Assembly (NCBI GenBank): GCA_015057315.1
Contig: SVER01000015.1
Span: 1 to 64,000 of the forward strand
Origin: Pseudobutyrivibrio ruminis
Lineage (GTDB): Bacteria; Bacillota; Clostridia; Lachnospirales; Lachnospiraceae
Direction: 5' to 3'
DNA: 64,000 nt
Each line of letters begins with the position of its first letter. Position 1 is the stretch's first letter. The translations under genes and the position numbers were made by a program. Positions 8,715 through 39,571 of this stretch are shown here, piece by piece. The notes under the pieces were generated by a model. The model was not told where the DNA came from and searched no databases. It saw only the letters and a list, made by a program, of their open reading frames with translations.

Positions 8715-8914
8715 GCCATTACCCCCGAAAAAACTACGTATATTCTACCATATTTGTTACACCTTGTAACTATCTACTGCCCCATAATCTCAGCCGACCC
8801 GCCTGCCTTCCTCCCTTTACTCTCCACCGCCCCTGCCCCGCCTGCCCCACCGCTAGTGAGAACTTCTTTTGCCATGCCACGGGCTCTTATTTCTATAGTT
8901 TCCATCCACAATCC

Positions 8915-9303
8915 CAGAATCTACATTTTCTAAATACTACAAATGCCCCTTCTTTGATTGTTAGAATCTTTTTAATTCTTTGCACTTTCAGCCTGCTGTC
9001 TCCCTGACACAGACACTCATATATGTTATTTAGCTTCCACAGTATAATTCATAATCAATTGCATGATTTTGTAGTGAGCTTAGTAAAATCAAAAGCAGGG
9101 TTTGCATGTTTTAGTATGGGCTGCCACGGACGGCAGCCCAAGGCTGATAGCGAAATGGACTGAGCTTGAAGCCGGTACTAAAACATTCAAACCCTACTTT
9201 TAGATTTTACTTAGCAAACGGAATATGAATGCAATTGATTATGAATTATACTGTGGAAGCTCTTAGTACCCCTCGGAGTGTCTGTGTCAGGGAGACAGCA
9301 GGC
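8915..9303 (+). repeat. Long branched hairpin element, copy A
   Basis: This non-coding rod has perfectly paired segments 8991-9018 with 9276-9303 (28 bp), 9032-9064 with 9229-9261 (33 bp), 9083-9090 with 9203-9210 (8 bp), 9091-9104 with 9188-9201 (14 bp, one mismatch) and 9108-9116 with 9176-9184 (9 bp). The head has hairpin 1 (9117-9125 with 9132-9140) and hairpin 2 (9142-9145 with 9170-9173 and an inner 3-bp stem). Bases 9101-9178 are identical to 15247-15324 in copy B. The left arm resembles copy B outward to 8915, but its right partner is missing, so the copy looks shortened. Apart from a C-rich tract at 8795-8850, I see no gene in 8715-8914. Confidence 0.9.
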
Positions 9304-9366
9304 GGGTGGACGTAAAAATGAGGCCACCTATGGCATACATAAGTGACCCCACCTTTTGGAAATTTA

Positions 9367-11427
9367 TTATTCAGACTTTAGTCTAAATTGGCTAACTACC
9401 TTTGTAAGGCTTTCGGAGATGTCGTTTTGCTTGTCTGACATTCCGTTGATTTCGATGACTGTTTCGGATAGATTTTCAACGGAATCCATTACGTTGCCGC
9501 TGTTGGCTGCTGTGTTCTGGGTAGCCTCGGCGATGTTCTGGATAGCGTCACGTACCTCGCTCATGATTTCCTGAATTGAATCAGTCATCTGAGATAGCTT
9601 CTCGGATGTTTCTTTGATGGATTCAGCATCCTGTCCGTATCTTTCAGCTACGTCTACGAAGTTCTTGTAGTCAGGTGTAACTGTGTCTGATACGTAATCG
9701 AGAAGGGATTTTGCATTGGTAGCAAGTCCTTCGAAGGCTTCCTGGATACCGGAGATTGTTTCCTGAATCTTGCCTACAGAATCTGATGTCTGGCCTGCCA
9801 GCTTACCGATTTCTGTAGCAACTACTGCGAAGCCCTTGCCCTGCTCACCGGCTCTGGCTGCCTCAATTGAAGCATTCAGAGAAAGTAATGTTATTTGGTC
9901 TGCAATGTCTGCGATAACACTGGCCATTTCGCCAATGCTTTCTACGACCTTGGACTGAGCTATGCTGTCTTCAAGCTTTGTCTGGAAGCTTGTCTGTAAT
10001 GTCTGAGATTTATCGAATGCCTCCTGGCTGTTCTTTCCAATTTCAGCTGCACGCTTTTGAATATCGATGGCAAGCTCTAGGCTGCCCTTTGTTTCATCAT
10101 TAAGATTGTCTGTGGACTGAGCAACCTGGTCAACTGATGCTGATAGCTCCTCTGTGGCTGCTGATGAATTCATCATATCTGAGTTTACGTCACCCATTAC
10201 GTCTACAATCTTATCAAACTCTATCTTGAGCTGTTCAGCAGAAGTCTTTAGCGTACTGCTGGCTTCATTGATTTCTACAGAGTAATCCGCAATGCTTTGG
10301 ATAACCCCCTTGTTGTTTCCATACATATCGTTAAGAGAAGAAGACATAACTGCAAGCTCGTCTCTGCCCTTGATTGATAATGAATCAATGGTGAAATCGC
10401 CCTCTGCAAGGCGTGTTGCAAAGCCTTGAACCTTGCGGATTGTTTTGGCTACACCACCGATACCCATTACAATTATTATGATTGCAACGATGATTGCAAC
10501 AATACATACTGCAATAAGTCTATTAATCAGCTGGTAGATAGGCTGCATAAGTTCGTAGGCCTGAATGGCTACCATCAGCTTCCAGCCTGTTAAACCGATT
10601 GTATCAAAATAAACTTTGTAATCCTTCTTGCCATCTGAATAGCTTGTAACACCATTTGTATCAGCAAGAATAGTGCTCATCATTTTTACCACTGAAGCGT
10701 TTTCATCAGCTGTAAGATTTGCACCCTCCTGAACCTTGGCATCATCGTAGCCTGCTATCAAAAGACCATCAGCACCAGTAAGAATACCTACGCCAGTCTC
10801 GCCTACCTTGATATTTCCTATGATGTTTGTGATGGCTGATAGCTCAATATCAACTGTTACACAACCAATCTTCTTTCCACCAACAACAATTGGTGTTGAG
10901 CAAGAGGACATGACTGTTCCGGAAGTAGGATCATAATAAGGGTCTGTAATCATTGGCTTATCACTACCCATTGCATTGGTATAGTATTCCTGAGTGAAAT
11001 AATCGTACTCGGCATTGCTGTACTCCCAAGTAGTTACTGCATTATCACCATCCTTGTATACGTAAGGGCCATAATACTGCTGCTCAGGATCATAGGCGTA
11101 TGGTTCAAACCAAAGACCTGAGCCTAGCACAATATCATTGGTTGCAATCATATCCTGTAACATCTTCTCATAAGCTGCCCACTCAGTGTAAGTATAAGAT
11201 GAAGCAACACTGATTGCTATAGAATTTGCCAATGTTTCTACATCCTGCAGGTAGCCTGTTACCTCTGAGCTGTTAGCTCGAAGCTCTGCCTGCATAGATT
11301 CCTGAGTCTTTCTATCTACCAGAGCCTCACTGGATGTTGCGGACATAATTGTTAGAACGATTTGGGCCAATACCAGAACCGGCAAAATCATTACTAACAT
11401 TTTGGTTCCAATTTTCTTAAAATTCAT
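9367..11427 (-). CDS. Methyl-accepting chemotaxis protein with dCache sensor
   Basis: This 686-residue chemoreceptor has an N-terminal membrane segment near residues 10-30, an extracellular dCache-like sensor (about 35-280), a second membrane segment (about 293-320), a HAMP domain and a cytoplasmic MCP signalling hairpin. The tip is recognisable from [19 protein letters not shown] near residue 520. It would signal to CheA/CheW, which are not in this window. GGAGGG precedes the ATG. It follows the response regulator by 153 bases, with a terminator between, so it is likely its own unit. Copy A of the long hairpin lies 63 bases past its stop. Confidence 0.92.
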
Positions 11428-11537
11428 ATATTGCCCTCCAATACTTATACGTTCCCCTCAGATAAAAAAATTTTATTTCATAAATGTGTATAAATGTTGA
11501 AAATTCCTCATCCATACTATGAATTTTTTGCGTAAAA

Positions 11538-11569
11538 AACCACCTGGCTATAAAATTTGCCAGGTGGTT
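11538..11569 (-). terminator. Terminator after the response regulator
   Basis: An 11-bp perfect stem (11538-11548 with 11559-11569) with a ten-base loop sits 12 bases past the response-regulator stop and is followed on the minus strand by a run of five T. It separates the kinase-regulator operon from the chemoreceptor gene. Confidence 0.85.
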
Positions 11570-11580
11570 ATACATTCAAT

Positions 11581-12351
11581 TTATTGCTCGGCCTGTTTTA
11601 GGAAGATGTTCTCAATTGCATTTATAATCTTGGTCTGCATAGGTGGCTTTACAAAATAGCCTGCAGGCTTAAGATCTAAAACAGCATCTACATGCTCCTT
11701 ATCAGCAATTCCTGTTAGGAATATAACTGGAACATCCTTATAATCCTCCTCAGAGCGAATCATCTCCAGTGTCTGTCTGCCATCTACAACAGGCATCTCA
11801 TAATCAAGAATGATTAAATCTGGTCTATCCTGCCCCATGGCCTTCATACATTGTGCTGCAGATGTTGCAAGGGTTACCCTATATTTATCCTGGAGCATAT
11901 TTCGCATATTTCTAAGCAACACAGGATTATCATCTACCACAATAATATGGCGCTTATCTGTCTCTACCACAGCATTAAGTATAGCATCAGCATTCATGCC
12001 AAATTCCTTACAAATGCCTCTGATAATAAGTTCCCTGGATGCCTGCTCGATGTTCTTAAATTGACCAGAGTAATAATAAGAAATGAACATCTGCTTCTTA
12101 AGCTCTTTGCCATAGGTAAGGACTGGAAGCTGAGGATTATATTCAGAAATAGCTTCGAATATCTCCTCATGGGATATATCAAAACCATCTATGTCCATGA
12201 TTACCATATCTGGACCAAACAGTTTTAGCATACTCTTAACAATCTTTCCACTACTGGTGCACAGCTGAGTATGAAAGTGCTGTGAAAGAAAAGAATTAAC
12301 GTCCGATGGTGAATCGGAACTAAAGTCCCCAACAATTAGTAGTTTTCGCAT
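11581..12351 (-). CDS. Response regulator with a degenerate and an intact receiver domain
   Basis: The 256-residue protein has no DNA-binding output domain. Residues of about 135-250 form a canonical receiver: VVDDNP acidic pocket, LDYEMPVVDG phosphoacceptor, FLTG switch and the FVKPP lysine. Residues 1-120 look like a divergent receiver (LIVGDFSSDSPSD, then MDIDGFD) lacking the normal acidic pair. It lies 10 bases downstream of the hybrid kinase gene with AAGGAGA before the ATG, so the two form one operon. The output probably depends on protein contacts. Confidence 0.88.
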   Translation of the reverse strand: MRKLLIVGDFSSDSPSDVNSFLSQHFHTQLCTSSGKIVKSMLKLFGPDMVIMDIDGFDISHEEIFEAISEYNPQLPVLTYGKELKKQMFISYYYSGQFKNIEQASRELIIRGICKEFGMNADAILNAVVETDKRHIIVVDDNPVLLRNMRNMLQDKYRVTLATSAAQCMKAMGQDRPDLIILDYEMPVVDGRQTLEMIRSEEDYKDVPVIFLTGIADKEHVDAVLDLKPAGYFVKPPMQTKIINAIENIFLKQAEQ

Positions 12352-12361
12352 AATATTCTCC

Positions 12362-14803
12362 TTAATTTTGTAGCTTTTCTATATCTGCCAATGCCTCATC
12401 TTCCTCAAGATTCATAACATGCATATTCAAATGCTCCAACCTTTCTTGAATGTCCCCCTCATAAGCAAATGACATTATTTGTTTCATATTATTATCAGCA
12501 GCCTCGGAATCGTGAGTCATTATTGCCATCTTAAGCATCTCAAGAAGAGCAAACAAATCGTCCATATCCTCCATCTTTGGCTTTTCAACATCAGATGAAA
12601 GTACTGCTAATCTGGATTTCATAGAATCCATCTCTTCCAAAAGAATTGGCGTCAGCATCTTGATTCTATCAATATCCTTATCCCTGGCTGCATACTCACA
12701 GAGCTTAGCAAGTCCGCCCAGTGATGTAGCGCCTATGGTATTAGACATGCTCTTAACCCCATGCACCTTGATTCTGTAATCTTCCAATACAGATTCGTCT
12801 ATACTATTATAATACCTGAGAATCTCGTCTCTTTCAAACCCGATTGAGTCATAAAAATCAATTGCGGTCTGATATACCATATTAGTATCAGGGAAATGCA
12901 ACAGTGCATAATCCCAATCGATTCCTTCTATATCCGGCAATTCTACCTTCTTAGAACGATGTTTTCTCGCTTCATCCTTAGCATCTGGCTCATGATATTC
13001 CAGCAGATTTTCTGGCAGAAAATCGCGAATCATCTTTTCCAGCTGTGCCGGTACAACAGGTTTAGACAAGAATCCATGGAATCCCATGGTCAAATATCTA
13101 TCCTTTGCGCCTGCAATAGCATTTGCAGTAAGAGCAATTACAGGAGTTCCCAAACATCTATTACCATCCAATGTACCCATAGCCTTGAATGTCTCCACAC
13201 CATCCATACCAGGCATCATGTGGTCAAGGAAAATCATATCAAAATGCTGCTGCTTAATAAGCTGCAAACACTCTGCACCGCTGGAAGCCTCCTGGATTTT
13301 AACCTTGGAATCCTTAAGCAATGCCACAAAAACCTTTCTATTCATAGCATTATCATCTACTATAAGGAAGTTTGCCTTTGGCGCCTCAAAGCTTGTGCTA
13401 TATTCGTAATTAGATGTAAGCTGCTTTAGCTTTTGCTCAAAATCACCTATAGGCTCCTTATTAACAACCTCCTGTGAAAGAGTGAAATAGAATGTAGAGC
13501 CCTGCCCATATACGCTCTCCACCTCTAAGTTGCTTCCCATCATCTTAAGCAGATTCTGGGTAATAGTCATTCCAAGGCCTGCGCCTTCGATATTTCTATT
13601 TCTATTAACCTCTAATCTCTCAAAGGATTCAAACATTCTCTTGATATCCTCTGGCTTAATACCGATACCAGTATCCTTTACCTTAAAGGTCAAATCCACA
13701 TAATTGCCAAAGCTTTTTTCACAATCGACGCTGATTTCAATATAACCTTCCTGAGTATACTTAACTGCATTAGTAATAATATTAGTAAGAATCTGTTTAA
13801 TTCTAATATCATCTCCCAGCATATCACAAGGAATTGTACTATCAATACTAAGCTTTAGCTCCAGGTTCTTTTCCTTAGCACGAAGTGTTACATTATTAAG
13901 GACATCATGCATCAAACTCATAAATGCATACTCGCCCTTAACAATCCCCATCTTACCAGACTCAATCTTTGTAATATCCAGTATATCATTAATCAGAGAC
14001 AACAGATTCTGTGAAGCAGTCTTGATATCCAGCGCATACTCCTCTACTACCTTTTCTGAGGTCTCCCTAAGAATCATCTCATCCATACCCATAATAGTAT
14101 TGATAGGAGTTCTTATCTCGTGAGACATATTTGCCAGGAAATTACTCTTGGCCTCCGTAGCTGTCTGTGCCTGCTTCTCAGCCTTCTTCGCCTGCAAGGT
14201 CTTCTCTAACAAATCATCGTTATTGATAGCCGCCTGCTTATACAATCTATCATAAAGACTTCTCTGAAACTTTATAATACTACCTACTGCAAAAGCTGTT
14301 ATCATAAGGGATTGAATAACATCCAAATATACATTTGCTCTAGGCTCCAAGCTTATCACATACTCAGGATGATAATAGGAAATAACATAGCATCCAACTA
14401 TAATAGCCACATCAGTAAGAAGCAAAAACAAAAAGTCCATGCCATCCAACAGCATAAACATAAAAATAATGCCCATGGAGAACCAGCACACCATACCACT
14501 ATTGATTCCACCTGTCACAAAAAACATAACAGGGAACAAACCAATAGCCACTGCGAAGCAAACCGCAATAGTGCTATTTTTCAAGCAATTACGGAAATTG
14601 GCCATGTAGATACACACGCCATCTATTATTATAGATACCAGGATAACAGCTGTCAGCAACCCTGACATACCACCAATTATATTCAATGGAATTGTTACAA
14701 CACCACCTACGAACCCAATAATCGTAATAATATTAAACAACACCAAATCCGTTGGTAAATCCTGACCAAAAAATCTCTTATTTATTGCCCTGAGCTTCTT
14801 CAA
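12362..14803 (-). CDS. Membrane hybrid histidine kinase with receiver and Hpt domains
   Basis: Domains in order are five to six membrane segments (residues about 20-195) without a large extracellular sensor, HisKA with phosphorylated His in NMSHEIRTPINTIMG (near residue 230), HATPase_c (KVKDTGIGIKPED and GAGLGMTI), a receiver (LDHMMPGMDG) and a C-terminal Hpt domain (KVHGVKSMSNTIGA, near residue 683). This is a full phosphorelay in one chain. A GTG at 14812 is possible, but the TTG at 14803 has TTGGAG at the correct distance and is preferred. The next gene supplies a free receiver. The signal is unknown. Confidence 0.9.
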   Translation of the reverse strand: MKKLRAINKRFFGQDLPTDLVLFNIITIIGFVGGVVTIPLNIIGGMSGLLTAVILVSIIIDGVCIYMANFRNCLKNSTIAVCFAVAIGLFPVMFFVTGGINSGMVCWFSMGIIFMFMLLDGMDFLFLLLTDVAIIVGCYVISYYHPEYVISLEPRANVYLDVIQSLMITAFAVGSIIKFQRSLYDRLYKQAAINNDDLLEKTLQAKKAEKQAQTATEAKSNFLANMSHEIRTPINTIMGMDEMILRETSEKVVEEYALDIKTASQNLLSLINDILDITKIESGKMGIVKGEYAFMSLMHDVLNNVTLRAKEKNLELKLSIDSTIPCDMLGDDIRIKQILTNIITNAVKYTQEGYIEISVDCEKSFGNYVDLTFKVKDTGIGIKPEDIKRMFESFERLEVNRNRNIEGAGLGMTITQNLLKMMGSNLEVESVYGQGSTFYFTLSQEVVNKEPIGDFEQKLKQLTSNYEYSTSFEAPKANFLIVDDNAMNRKVFVALLKDSKVKIQEASSGAECLQLIKQQHFDMIFLDHMMPGMDGVETFKAMGTLDGNRCLGTPVIALTANAIAGAKDRYLTMGFHGFLSKPVVPAQLEKMIRDFLPENLLEYHEPDAKDEARKHRSKKVELPDIEGIDWDYALLHFPDTNMVYQTAIDFYDSIGFERDEILRYYNSIDESVLEDYRIKVHGVKSMSNTIGATSLGGLAKLCEYAARDKDIDRIKMLTPILLEEMDSMKSRLAVLSSDVEKPKMEDMDDLFALLEMLKMAIMTHDSEAADNNMKQIMSFAYEGDIQERLEHLNMHVMNLEEDEALADIEKLQN

Positions 14804-14945
14804 TTCTGTCACTCCAAATCTACTACTAACTTACGCACTCCCACGCATCAATATGCGCACATACCTAAGATAAATATAATAAAATATTCCCAATCCTACA
14901 AGACTTTGCGCCCTCAAAAACGTGAAGATTTTGTGTCCTCGCCCA

Positions 14946-15637
14946 GCCCTGCCCACCTGCCCCTCTATCTGGCCTACGTCTATGCCTCACCCCCTTAAAA
15001 TTGATGCACAACACAGGCTCCCCAGCGGTATAAAGCCCCCATGCTTTCTGGCACAATCGCAGAATCTTTTATTTTCTAAATGCTATAAATGCCGCTTCTT
15101 TGATTGTTAGTGTCTTTTTAATTCTTTGCACTTTCAGCCACCTGTATTCCTGGCGCAGACACTCATACACTTTATTTAGCTTCCACATTATAATTTATAA
15201 ATAATTGCATGATTTTGGAACGAGCTTAGTAAAAGCAAAAGCGGGTTTTGCATGTTTTAGTATGGGCTGCCACGGACGGCAGCCCAAGGCTGATAGCGAA
15301 ATGGACTGAGCTTGAAGCCGGTACGAAAACATTCAAAACCCGCTTTTAGCTTTTACTTAGCGAGTGTAATATGAATGCAATTATTTATAAATTATAATGT
15401 GGAAGCTTTTGAGGACATCAAGAGTGTCTGTGCCAGGAATACAGGTGGCTGAAAGTGCAAAATCAGTAAAAAGACACTAACTTGAAGCGGCATTTATAGC
15501 ATTAAGAAACTATTAGATTCTGCTCAAATGATGTCAGAAAGCATGGGGGCTTTATACCGCTGGGGAGCCTGTGTTGTATCTAAACATATCGAGTGAGGCA
15601 TAGGCCGTAGGCCCCCACCCTCATGGGTGGGCAGGGC
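14946..15637 (+). repeat. Long branched hairpin element, copy B (most complete)
   Basis: This 692-bp non-coding element fills the space between the kinase and ung. Paired segments from outside in are 14946-14956/15627-15637, 14971-14978/15606-15613, 14982-14990/15593-15601, 15008-15050/15535-15577 (43 bp perfect), 15059-15067/15515-15523, 15079-15098/15484-15503 (20 bp), 15107-15120/15467-15480, 15126-15164/15422-15460 (39 bp, one G-T pair) and 15178-15210/15375-15407 (33 bp), then inner stems. The branched head has hairpin 1 at 15263-15286 and hairpin 2 at 15288-15319. The element ends five bases from the ung stop codon. A short reading frame at 14865-15056 is an artefact of one arm. Confidence 0.92.
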
Positions 15638-15642
15638 GTAGG

Positions 15643-16317
15643 CTAGATGTTTTCGATTTGCCAGTCGATTGGGGCGAGGCCGTGGGTGGTTAGGAACTGG
15701 TTGGTTTGGCTGAAGTGTTTGCAGCCGAAGAAGCCCCTGTATGCTGAGAGAGGGGATGGGTGTGGTGCGCGAAGGATTAGGTGGTTAGGGTTGTTTAGCT
15801 TGGCGCACTTTTTGGCTGCTGGGGAGCCCCATAGTAGGAATACGATTGGGCGATCCTGCTTGTTTAGAATGTTGATTACGGCATCAGTGAACTGTTCCCA
15901 GCCTAGGCCTGCATGGCTGGCAGCCTGGTGTGCTCTGACGGTGAGTACGTTGTTGAGCATAAGGACGCCCTGGCGTGCCCATTTTTCCAGGTAGCCGTTG
16001 TTTGGAATGTAGCAACCTAAATCATCCTGTAGTTCCTTGTAGATGTTTACAAGTGATGGTGGAGTCTTAACACCAGGCTTTACGGAAAAGCATAAGCCGT
16101 GGGCCTGGCCTGGCTCATGATAAGGATCCTGTCCGATGATAACAACCTTTACATCCTTAAGTGGGGTGAAATCAAAGGCGTTGAAAATATCGTCTGCCGG
16201 TGGGTAGACCACGTTTTCGTGGTATTCCCTTTTAACATTTTCGTAAAGTGATTTGTAATATGGCTTTTTAAATTCTGGTGTAAGTGGCTCTAGCCAATCA
16301 TTTGAAATTGCTGACAT
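15643..16317 (-). CDS. ung: Uracil-DNA glycosylase, family 1
   Basis: The 224-residue enzyme removes uracil from DNA as the first step of base-excision repair. It has the catalytic water-activating motif [18 protein letters not shown], the uracil-contacting LLWGSPA segment and the leucine-loop motif [13 protein letters not shown]. The length is typical of the family. It starts 10 bases after niaR with AGGAGA before the ATG, so it is the last gene of the nad operon by spacing. This placement is not functionally obvious. Confidence 0.97.
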
Positions 16318-26040: not shown

Positions 26041-26253
26041 AAAGCTAACCATAATAAATGGTTAGCTAATGATATCGTAACGTATGATAGCTCCCCACTT
26101 ATCACTAAGTGACAGTCATACAGTTATTCACTGCATGCCCAAGATAAGCAACTACAGGCGCTACTCTCCTTCGGCGAAATTCCCTTTTATCTCATATCAC
26201 TTGGGCCTGTCCCATCAATGAGATTACTAATGTTTCTCGCAACCTCTATCTTT
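26041..26253 (-). ncRNA. Lysine riboswitch (L box) with terminator
   Basis: On the minus strand the leader of dapA contains the L-box hallmarks: AGATAGAGGTTGCG at the 5' side of P1, an AGTAA segment, GGGAATTTCGCCGAAGGAG, a CAGTGAATAACTG stem, GACTGTCACTT and GGGGAGCTATC closing P1. P1 pairs 26246-26250 with 26086-26090. It is followed by a 10-bp terminator stem (26043-26052 with 26058-26067) and a run of T. Lysine binding should favour the terminator and shut off dapA and the transporter. Confidence 0.95.
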
Positions 26254-26369
26254 TATTAAGTTGACCTCATAGTACAACTTCAATCATTATCTGTCAACCT
26301 GTTTTTTTCCATTCCCCTCAAATCCCCTTTGTAGGTACTATTCACGGACATGCCCATATGCCCGTAGCT

Positions 26370-38835: not shown

Positions 38836-38928
38836 AATATAAGCTTCCCCGGTAAAAAACAAATATTCATTTTCCCAAGGGATTATAAGATTTTCATAAA
38901 CTCATGGCCAGCCGTACCCCTTGCTATA

Positions 38929-39571
38929 GCTGGGGAGCTGTCACTATAGCATAAGGCGCCTGCCTGGAGCTTGCCCTCCCGCCGCCGGCTACACACCATG
39001 CACGGATATCATTTGAGCAGATTTGTAGATTATCTTAATGTGAGTAATCTTGCATCTGTAGGTGTACTTACTAAGCTTTTACAATTCGAAGGTAATGTGT
39101 GTAGACAGCGGACATATATATAGTTCTACAAGCATGTGTATTAGCCGGATTAAGCCCTGTTGCGTTTGCTATTACATTCGCTAATAAAAATTAAAAAAGC
39201 AGGTTTTGAATATATAGCCACCGTGGCACATTCGACATCGTGTCTCAGGTGACCACTTGCGCCGCCATCCTAGCGGCGCATATCTATATATACAAAACCT
39301 GCTTTTTATTTTTCTAAGCTCACTTCAAAGCAAACGCAACAGGGCTTAATCCTGCTAATACACATGCATTCAAATTTTAATTTATGTCCGCTGTCTGCAT
39401 ACTTTACTGATAGAATTGTAAAACTTTGTAAGAACACCTACTAATAAAGATGCAAGATTTCACATTTAGATAATCTAAAATCTGTGATTGTATCTGTGTA
39501 TGGTGTGTAGCCGGCGGCGGGAGGGCATGCTCTAGGCAGGCGCCTTGAAATCTTACTCAGCTCCCAAGCTG
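38929..39571 (-). repeat. Long branched hairpin element, copy C
   Basis: This 643-bp non-coding rod pairs 38955-38964/39535-39544 (10 bp), 38972-38998/39501-39527 (27 bp perfect, extended by G-T pairs), 39132-39144/39355-39367 (13 bp), 39147-39170/39329-39352 (24 bp perfect) and 39194-39208/39293-39307 (15 bp perfect), with most of the remaining arms alignable. The head has hairpin 39258-39265/39273-39280 and a second with 39223-39226/39253-39256 and 39234-39237/39241-39244. On the minus strand the arms near the head (GTGAGCTTAG and ATTCAAA blocks) match copies A and B. It ends 14 bases from the metY stop. Confidence 0.9.

Follow-up and report, generated by a model that had tools for sequence, protein, structure and literature searches.

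The window analysed here, a stretch of 64,000 nt from Pseudobutyrivibrio ruminis (contig SVER01000015.1, positions 1 to 64,000), harbors three giant hairpins, referred to as copies A, B and C, whose heads are TwoAYGGAY RNA (RF01731). Copy A lies on the plus strand at 8790..9313, with approximate limits and one outer arm partly deleted; its TwoAYGGAY core spans 9067..9226 and is enclosed by a 33-bp stem with its 5' arm at 9032..9064 and, further out, by a 28-bp stem with its 5' arm at 8991..9018. Copy B, likewise on the plus strand, is a complete insertion of 705 bp at 14938..15642 that immediately follows the stop codon of gene 15643-16317. Its core is found at 15214..15371, and its outer stem is formed by the 5' arm 15008..15053 and the 3' arm 15532..15577 (both plus strand), each of which differs from that of the sister species G010. 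Copy C occupies the minus strand at 38920..39560 (approximate limits) with its core at 39170..39329. Covariance-model scores of 62.8, 70.3 and 63 bits were obtained for copies A, B and C, respectively, all above the gathering cut-off of 43. As judged by eye, the right end of copy A adjoins the T-run of a terminator-like hairpin, and the neighbours of copies A and C comprise a terminator-like T-run and a gene end. The window also contains a lysine riboswitch at 26080-26256 on the minus strand (109.2 bits).

Copies A and B had attracted attention in the initial annotation because of compensated changes in their stems around an invariant head, and these counts were reproduced. In the 28-bp stem (A 8991-9018/9276-9303, B 15137-15164/15422-15449), five pairs are compensated, one changes from A-T to G-T and 22 are unchanged, while in the 33-bp stem (A 9032-9064/9229-9261, B 15178-15210/15375-15407) four pairs are changed on both sides and 29 are unchanged. 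The inner stems hold three more paired changes, read by eye from the sequence, and the head is identical at 78 of 78 positions between copy A (9101-9178) and copy B (15247-15324). Over the 61 pairs of both stems, the left arm is changed at ten positions and the right arm at nine, with nine coinciding, which was reached in none of 20,000 shuffles. The two stems constitute only the innermost part of a larger palindrome, and copies A and B belong to a dispersed mobile element that is about twice as long as the stems originally described and is present 13 times in this genome.

Palindromes of 560-803 nt with a median of 620 were recovered by local alignment of the two arms in 80 of 100 copies, which were chosen from 252 motif matches in the genus by picking among 150 listed ones and adding all listed copies of the genome G007; for a few of them (L034, L117), the length is based on arm alignments that are short or lopsided. 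Later comparisons took in 120 copies, and L112 as well as four truncated or odd copies were left out of single copy comparisons. The computed folding energy of copy B (14980-15610) is -393.5 kcal/mol (z -50.8, 20 shuffles), that of copy C -385 kcal/mol (z -22.9), and that of copy A, which misses part of one arm, -229.4 kcal/mol (z -18.8). Of 30 loci from other genera of the family, 27 yielded palindromes of 219-430 nt and L084 one of 546 nt, with unreliable arm alignments in L056 and L063. Almost the whole element is evidently an inverted repeat, so one strand can fold into a hairpin of 600-750 nt that is tipped by TwoAYGGAY.

The motif itself is widespread. All 13 RF01731 matches of this genome exceed the cut-off, and a survey of the genus yielded the 252 matches in 27 of 29 genomes, with 0-49 per genome. 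Among 298 genomes of the family, the motif was found in at least 46 and above the cut-off in at least 44, figures that are lower bounds because few candidates were scored per genome. Three contigs of other genera (G034:C47, G034:C33 and G056:C123) show two RF01731 matches in opposite orientation about 0.7 kb apart. According to loose patterns that leave the loop itself unchecked, 119 of 120 copies have GGAY close to loop 1, and in the vicinity of loop 2 GGAY was counted in 66, CGAY in 53 and another sequence in one. Weinberg et al. 2010 class TwoAYGGAY as a probable RNA that is probably neither cis-regulatory nor a riboswitch (PMC2864571), and a passage of another article puts it forward as a CsrA-binding RNA of Clostridia (PMC4333381). 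CsrA was detected in 28 of the 29 genomes of the genus, including both that are devoid of the motif (G001, G012), and the sole genome lacking a CsrA match, G015 (81% complete), has two motif matches; with CsrA this ubiquitous, co-occurrence is uninformative with respect to the sponge hypothesis. The elements share the head, both hairpins and the adjoining stem with TwoAYGGAY RNA and score above gathering, but the Rfam model comprises 168 positions while here the motif tips a mobile hairpin of 600-750 nt. Those parts of the retrieved literature that name TwoAYGGAY make no mention of a transposon or of a mobile 600-750-nt hairpin. Likewise, no literature was found that joins miniature inverted-repeat elements with Pseudobutyrivibrio, or long palindromic inverted-repeat mobile elements with Lachnospiraceae.

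Mobility is apparent at the site of copy B. Within the 900 bases downstream of the gene 15643-16317, a long palindrome is present in three of 29 genomes, namely this one, G010 and G013, with self-alignment scores of 594, 529 and 230, respectively, compared to at most 61 in the other 26. In the empty sites of G023, G004 and G024, the stop codon TAG runs straight into GACACAAA, where copy B has 705 bp. Moreover, 45 of the 120 copies feature the terminal repeats GTTACYATTCAC at both ends with up to three mismatches per end, and in G007 the end pattern yielded 24 matches vs none for the reversed control. Target duplications of 8 bp, defined as agreement at seven or more of eight positions, flank nine of the 36 best-ended copies compared to 0.23 expected; two of these nine (L014, L180) represent one locus in two species. 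In the 36 copies, the eight flanking bases agree at 59% vs 32% expected, and the control lengths gave none at k=9 and one at k=7 compared to 0.43 expected. The remaining nine of the 45 ended copies were left out owing to more than four end mismatches in all or short flanks. Canonical ends and an 8-bp duplication were not found for copies A, B and C, and the mobility of these three hence rests on the empty sites of copy B and on their relatives. At the level of genome comparison, these observations demonstrate that the giant hairpins are mobile. Copy B (14938-15642), the copy that was scanned, contains no ORF of 100 aa or more.

Outside the genus, seven of 25 loci show at least five matches at k=6 vs 2.5 expected and none at k=8, five short loci of 30 (L056, L057, L063, L078, L079) having been left out; target duplications in these genera are suggestive only. 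The palindrome of L060, from a different genus, is bracketed, as seen by eye, by a direct repeat of nine bases (atatagcgg), which hints that the motif may be mobile in other genera as well. Two kinds of smaller elements were also encountered. A separate MITE of 192-195 bp has the ends GTTACTATTCACAG as in the hairpin element (L275, L304, L311, L319, L324, L329, L336) and resides in G001 too (L304), a genome devoid of a TwoAYGGAY match, and an 80-bp derivative at L334:229-308 has the same ends as the element and a perfect 8-bp duplication, agtcaaag.

An autonomous element with the same ends was not identified, as the end-pattern search of the 29 genomes led only to an IS4-family transposase gene in G028. 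This candidate lies between GTTACTATTCAC ends but was rejected as partner, since its relatives have other outer sequences, CAATGTCATTAAGTTA. The G028 copy looks inserted into a small hairpin, its relatives show, by eye, duplications of 9-11 bp in hairpin loops, and it is more likely to represent an element inserting into hairpin loops. At 13 further loci with GTTACYATTCAC ends, no neighbouring transposase was recognised by eye from ORF starts. Elements of the IS4 family with CAATGTCATTAAGTTA ends were found by eye, with duplications of about 10-11 bp, in the loops of terminator-like hairpins (L342, L343, L344), and another one at L359 (L362 gave the same score) is flanked by two core arms of a TwoAYGGAY palindrome; these five loci come from G023, G012, G009 and G028. 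As judged from their insertion sites, the IS4-family elements with CAATGTCATTAAGTTA ends are probably hairpin-loop-targeting IS. In addition, an IS110-family transposase gene in L331 (G013:C197) is enclosed by two GTTACTATTCACGG ends spaced 2.3 kb, which would fit an insertion into such a palindrome.

Within their flanks, the elements are found in either direction. Among 18 copy pairs with both flanks matched, the element is inverted in 11 and parallel in seven, the pairs not being independent of each other. A cis-regulatory RNA, the Rfam type of RF01731, would be expected to keep a fixed orientation, in contrast to the 11 of 18 inverted pairs. For copy C, which is inverted in place in G010 (L019/L182), the interior aligns reversed at 96.5% over 628 columns, compared to 84.8% in the direct alignment including flanks; the corresponding values for L030/L031 are 97.8% over 579 columns and 83.5%. 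The orthologs of copy A in G010 and G013 are likewise inverted relative to their flanks, and in G007 the loops between the ends and the outer stem swap sides, by eye, among copies of one outer-stem type. Since interiors align reversed between parallel flanks, the arms recombine with each other. Several of the genomes are MAGs, in which the orientation at inverted repeats may be wrongly chosen and repeat content may be affected.

Comparisons of near-orthologous copies reveal how the stems differ: between related species, the majority of compensated changes fall into clustered blocks. The sister genomes G000 and G010 have at least five loci in common with flanks 95-98% alike. Copy B and its G010 ortholog have a nearly identical core, yet 14 compensated pairs are clustered in the central part of their outer stem, to a degree that 0 of 5000 shuffles reached, next to 15 one-sided changes. 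The single outer arm left in G013 at this locus resembles copy B by eye, so that G010 probably carries the changed version. The block of G010 (22 nt, up to three mismatches) has no other occurrence in the 29 genomes, which leaves part of the novelty unexplained and the account in this respect incomplete. At locus C, a mid-stem block of about 20 nt differs in both arms between G010 and G013, with six compensated pairs, again clustered (0 of 5000 shuffles), and nine one-sided changes. The G013 block matches both arms of the copy L183 with two mismatches each and shows more differences to L187; G000 has the G010 version, and either version may be the older one. One possible donor of this block would be a copy of the L183 type. 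One conversion tract that spans the entire centre, received from a copy with the same head, would also be a simple means of changing both arms of one ring together, although a head site, ACCTGAG vs ACTTGAG in L187, speaks mildly against this. A third case is L046/L048, where 25 compensated pairs are clustered (0 of 5000 shuffles) and accompanied by 13 one-sided changes, which cluster somewhat too (116 of 5000), and 13 broken double changes. L045/L186 shows 17 compensated pairs with weak clustering (179 of 5000), and L038/L044 constitutes the reverse case, in which the outer stem is kept and the core exchanged.

Pairs free of blocks provide the background: eight one-sided changes and one compensated pair in L014/L180, two and none in L019/L182, 15 and two in L178/L185, and six and one, with three broken double changes, in L030/L031. 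L014/L180 and L019/L182 are of the same age as the pair of copy B, and steady compensation would not readily explain such unlike patterns at loci of one age. Wider stretches gave 29 one-sided, three compensated and five broken double changes for L183/L187 and 14, three and two for L025/L181, in which one side is deleted; these counts include more one-sided change at misaligned outer edges. Copy A and its G010 ortholog (L020/L178) differ in another manner, as their 13 compensated pairs are spread over the inner stems instead of forming one block, the interior is 87% alike while the flanks are 95-96% alike, and about 150 nt of one outer arm have been lost in copy A. An exchange of the whole interior would explain this divergence, as would slow compensation in a fast-changing copy. 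Both the replacement of paired blocks in place and the inversion of the element are evident from these alignments.

In G007, 17 copies of 600-616 bp with both ends were available, and 16 of them were compared with L121. Compensated pairs are concentrated in the outer stem, where 172 changes are compensated, 90 one-sided and 18 broken doubles, while one-sided change prevails in the inner stems, with counts of 47, 112 and 17, respectively. In two copies (L124, L120), the hot block differs between their own two arms, which are thus hybrid. Internal loops and bulges hold the same places across copies and species. The covariation that the first reading of copies A and B had proposed to test exceeds the shuffle null, with 72 of 219 pairs changed on both sides compared to 25.2 in shuffles (0 of 500) and at most 27 in a slid alignment. 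It is unevenly distributed: in one outer helix, all 26 pairs are changed on both sides, while in the two long helices inside it 49 of 75 pairs never vary. Real as the covariation is, it is no demonstration that an RNA has been under steady selection. The initial annotation had regarded paired change in stems with a fixed head as the mark of a functional RNA or hairpin DNA; this holds insofar as RF01731, the head, is a structured motif that is conserved, but paired change by itself is not supported as evidence of selection for an RNA. Among 97 long copies, 51 possess a paired stretch of 26 nt or more that is unmatched in the other copies compared. In these unique outer stems, C exceeds G in the 5' arm of 46 of the 51 copies, the overall G-C skew amounts to -0.28, and the 3' arm is G-rich.

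Copies A, B and C probably represent a non-autonomous, MITE-like foldback DNA transposon of Pseudobutyrivibrio, the arms of which would have been rewritten through recombination, both from copy to copy and from one arm to the other. Recombination would treat the stems as units, hence the mainly paired change. Blocks that are already self-complementary would arrive from other copies by gene conversion, and recombination of arm with arm would flip the interior and overwrite one arm with the sequence of its partner. The triggering breaks probably arise at the extruded hairpin. A need for the head, inner stems and internal loops, either as RNA or as a transposase or hairpin substrate, would account for their greater constancy; that the head, the inner stems and the bulges are conserved speaks for a function of these parts, be it of RNA or of DNA. 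Single paired changes in the inner stems, which make up 27% of the changed pairs, count against this transposon reading. Less likely, the element might be edited while folded, so that breaks or conversion, acting on the extruded stem as on ordinary duplex, would write a new block into both arms at once; the outer stem would then constitute a fast-diversifying cassette, for which many copies possess their own unique yet still paired sequence.

That a functional RNA under continuous selection underlies the pattern, with selection favouring a compensatory change in the opposite arm whenever one arm had changed, appears improbable. The strength of the covariation over the shuffle and slide controls, the conservation of head and inner stems, the occurrence of the motif in at least 46 of 298 genomes of the family and the scattered compensated pairs between copy A and its G010 ortholog agree with it, as do the interiors of L030/L031, which are 97.8% identical compared to 86 and 88% in their flanks. 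However, of eight near-ortholog comparisons, four have clearly more one-sided than compensated changes, and three of the remaining four show compensated pairs clustered beyond all 5000 shuffles. Furthermore, 14-25 paired changes are hard to gather singly while the neighbours stay nearly identical, and an interior that flips relative to the neighbouring genes has no fixed transcription context. Intrastrand template switching free of selection, which the initial annotation had named, proved a serious alternative, and paired change in near-perfect outer arms despite their divergence, the inversions as signs of arm recombination, and the one-arm intermediates L124 and L120 are compatible with it. 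As a pure process, in which random one-arm mutations are corrected on the hairpin template by template switching or arm-to-arm conversion with neither inter-copy exchange nor selection, it is nonetheless improbable to much the same degree, given that internal loops and bulges persist in place across copies and species, one-sided mismatches are kept in the inner stems and the block at locus C matches another copy. Very improbable is the storage of captured phage, plasmid or gene sequence in both arms of the outer stem for a memory-like use. The unmatched paired segments of 51 of the 97 long copies would fit such a use, but the whole of copy B, the only stem searched, has no match at E 0.01 among 50,697 phage or 72,556 plasmid records, on which grounds a phage or plasmid origin of this copy was rejected, and two head patterns have no exact match in viral contigs. 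In addition, the outer stems of young G007 copies are by eye variants of one another, and the excess of C over G in 46 of 51 5' arms argues against such storage as well.

Seen as a foldback transposon, the element resembles bacterial MITEs in its short terminal inverted repeats, target duplication, many dispersed copies and absence of a long ORF (in copy B), and the 192-195-bp MITE of the same genus has the same ends. It differs from them in being nearly all inverted repeat, in carrying a conserved RNA motif and in an outer stem that varies from copy to copy yet stays paired. Some large palindromes, for instance the human Y palindromes, are kept alike by arm-to-arm gene conversion. With these and with foldback elements, the hairpins share long inverted arms, interior inversion and arms kept alike, but they are bacterial, about 0.7 kb long, endowed with conserved bulges and loops, and subject to block replacement in the stem. 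As in the hairpins, changes in quasi-palindrome template-switch mutation extend the identity between imperfect inverted arms (PMC3820800). That process brings the arms closer to perfection, whereas the present hairpins retain their loops and exchange blocks of their stems.

These findings suggest that strong covariation may arise largely by recombination between self-complementary copies, which calls for caution when RNAs in repeated elements are to be discovered from covariation. At the same time, the hairpins offer a natural assay for bacterial recombination and repair of long hairpins. Since the motif sits on a mobile hairpin, the covariation and the spread of TwoAYGGAY need re-reading, and an orphan RNA family of 2010 gains a physical context as the tip of a mobile hairpin in one genus.
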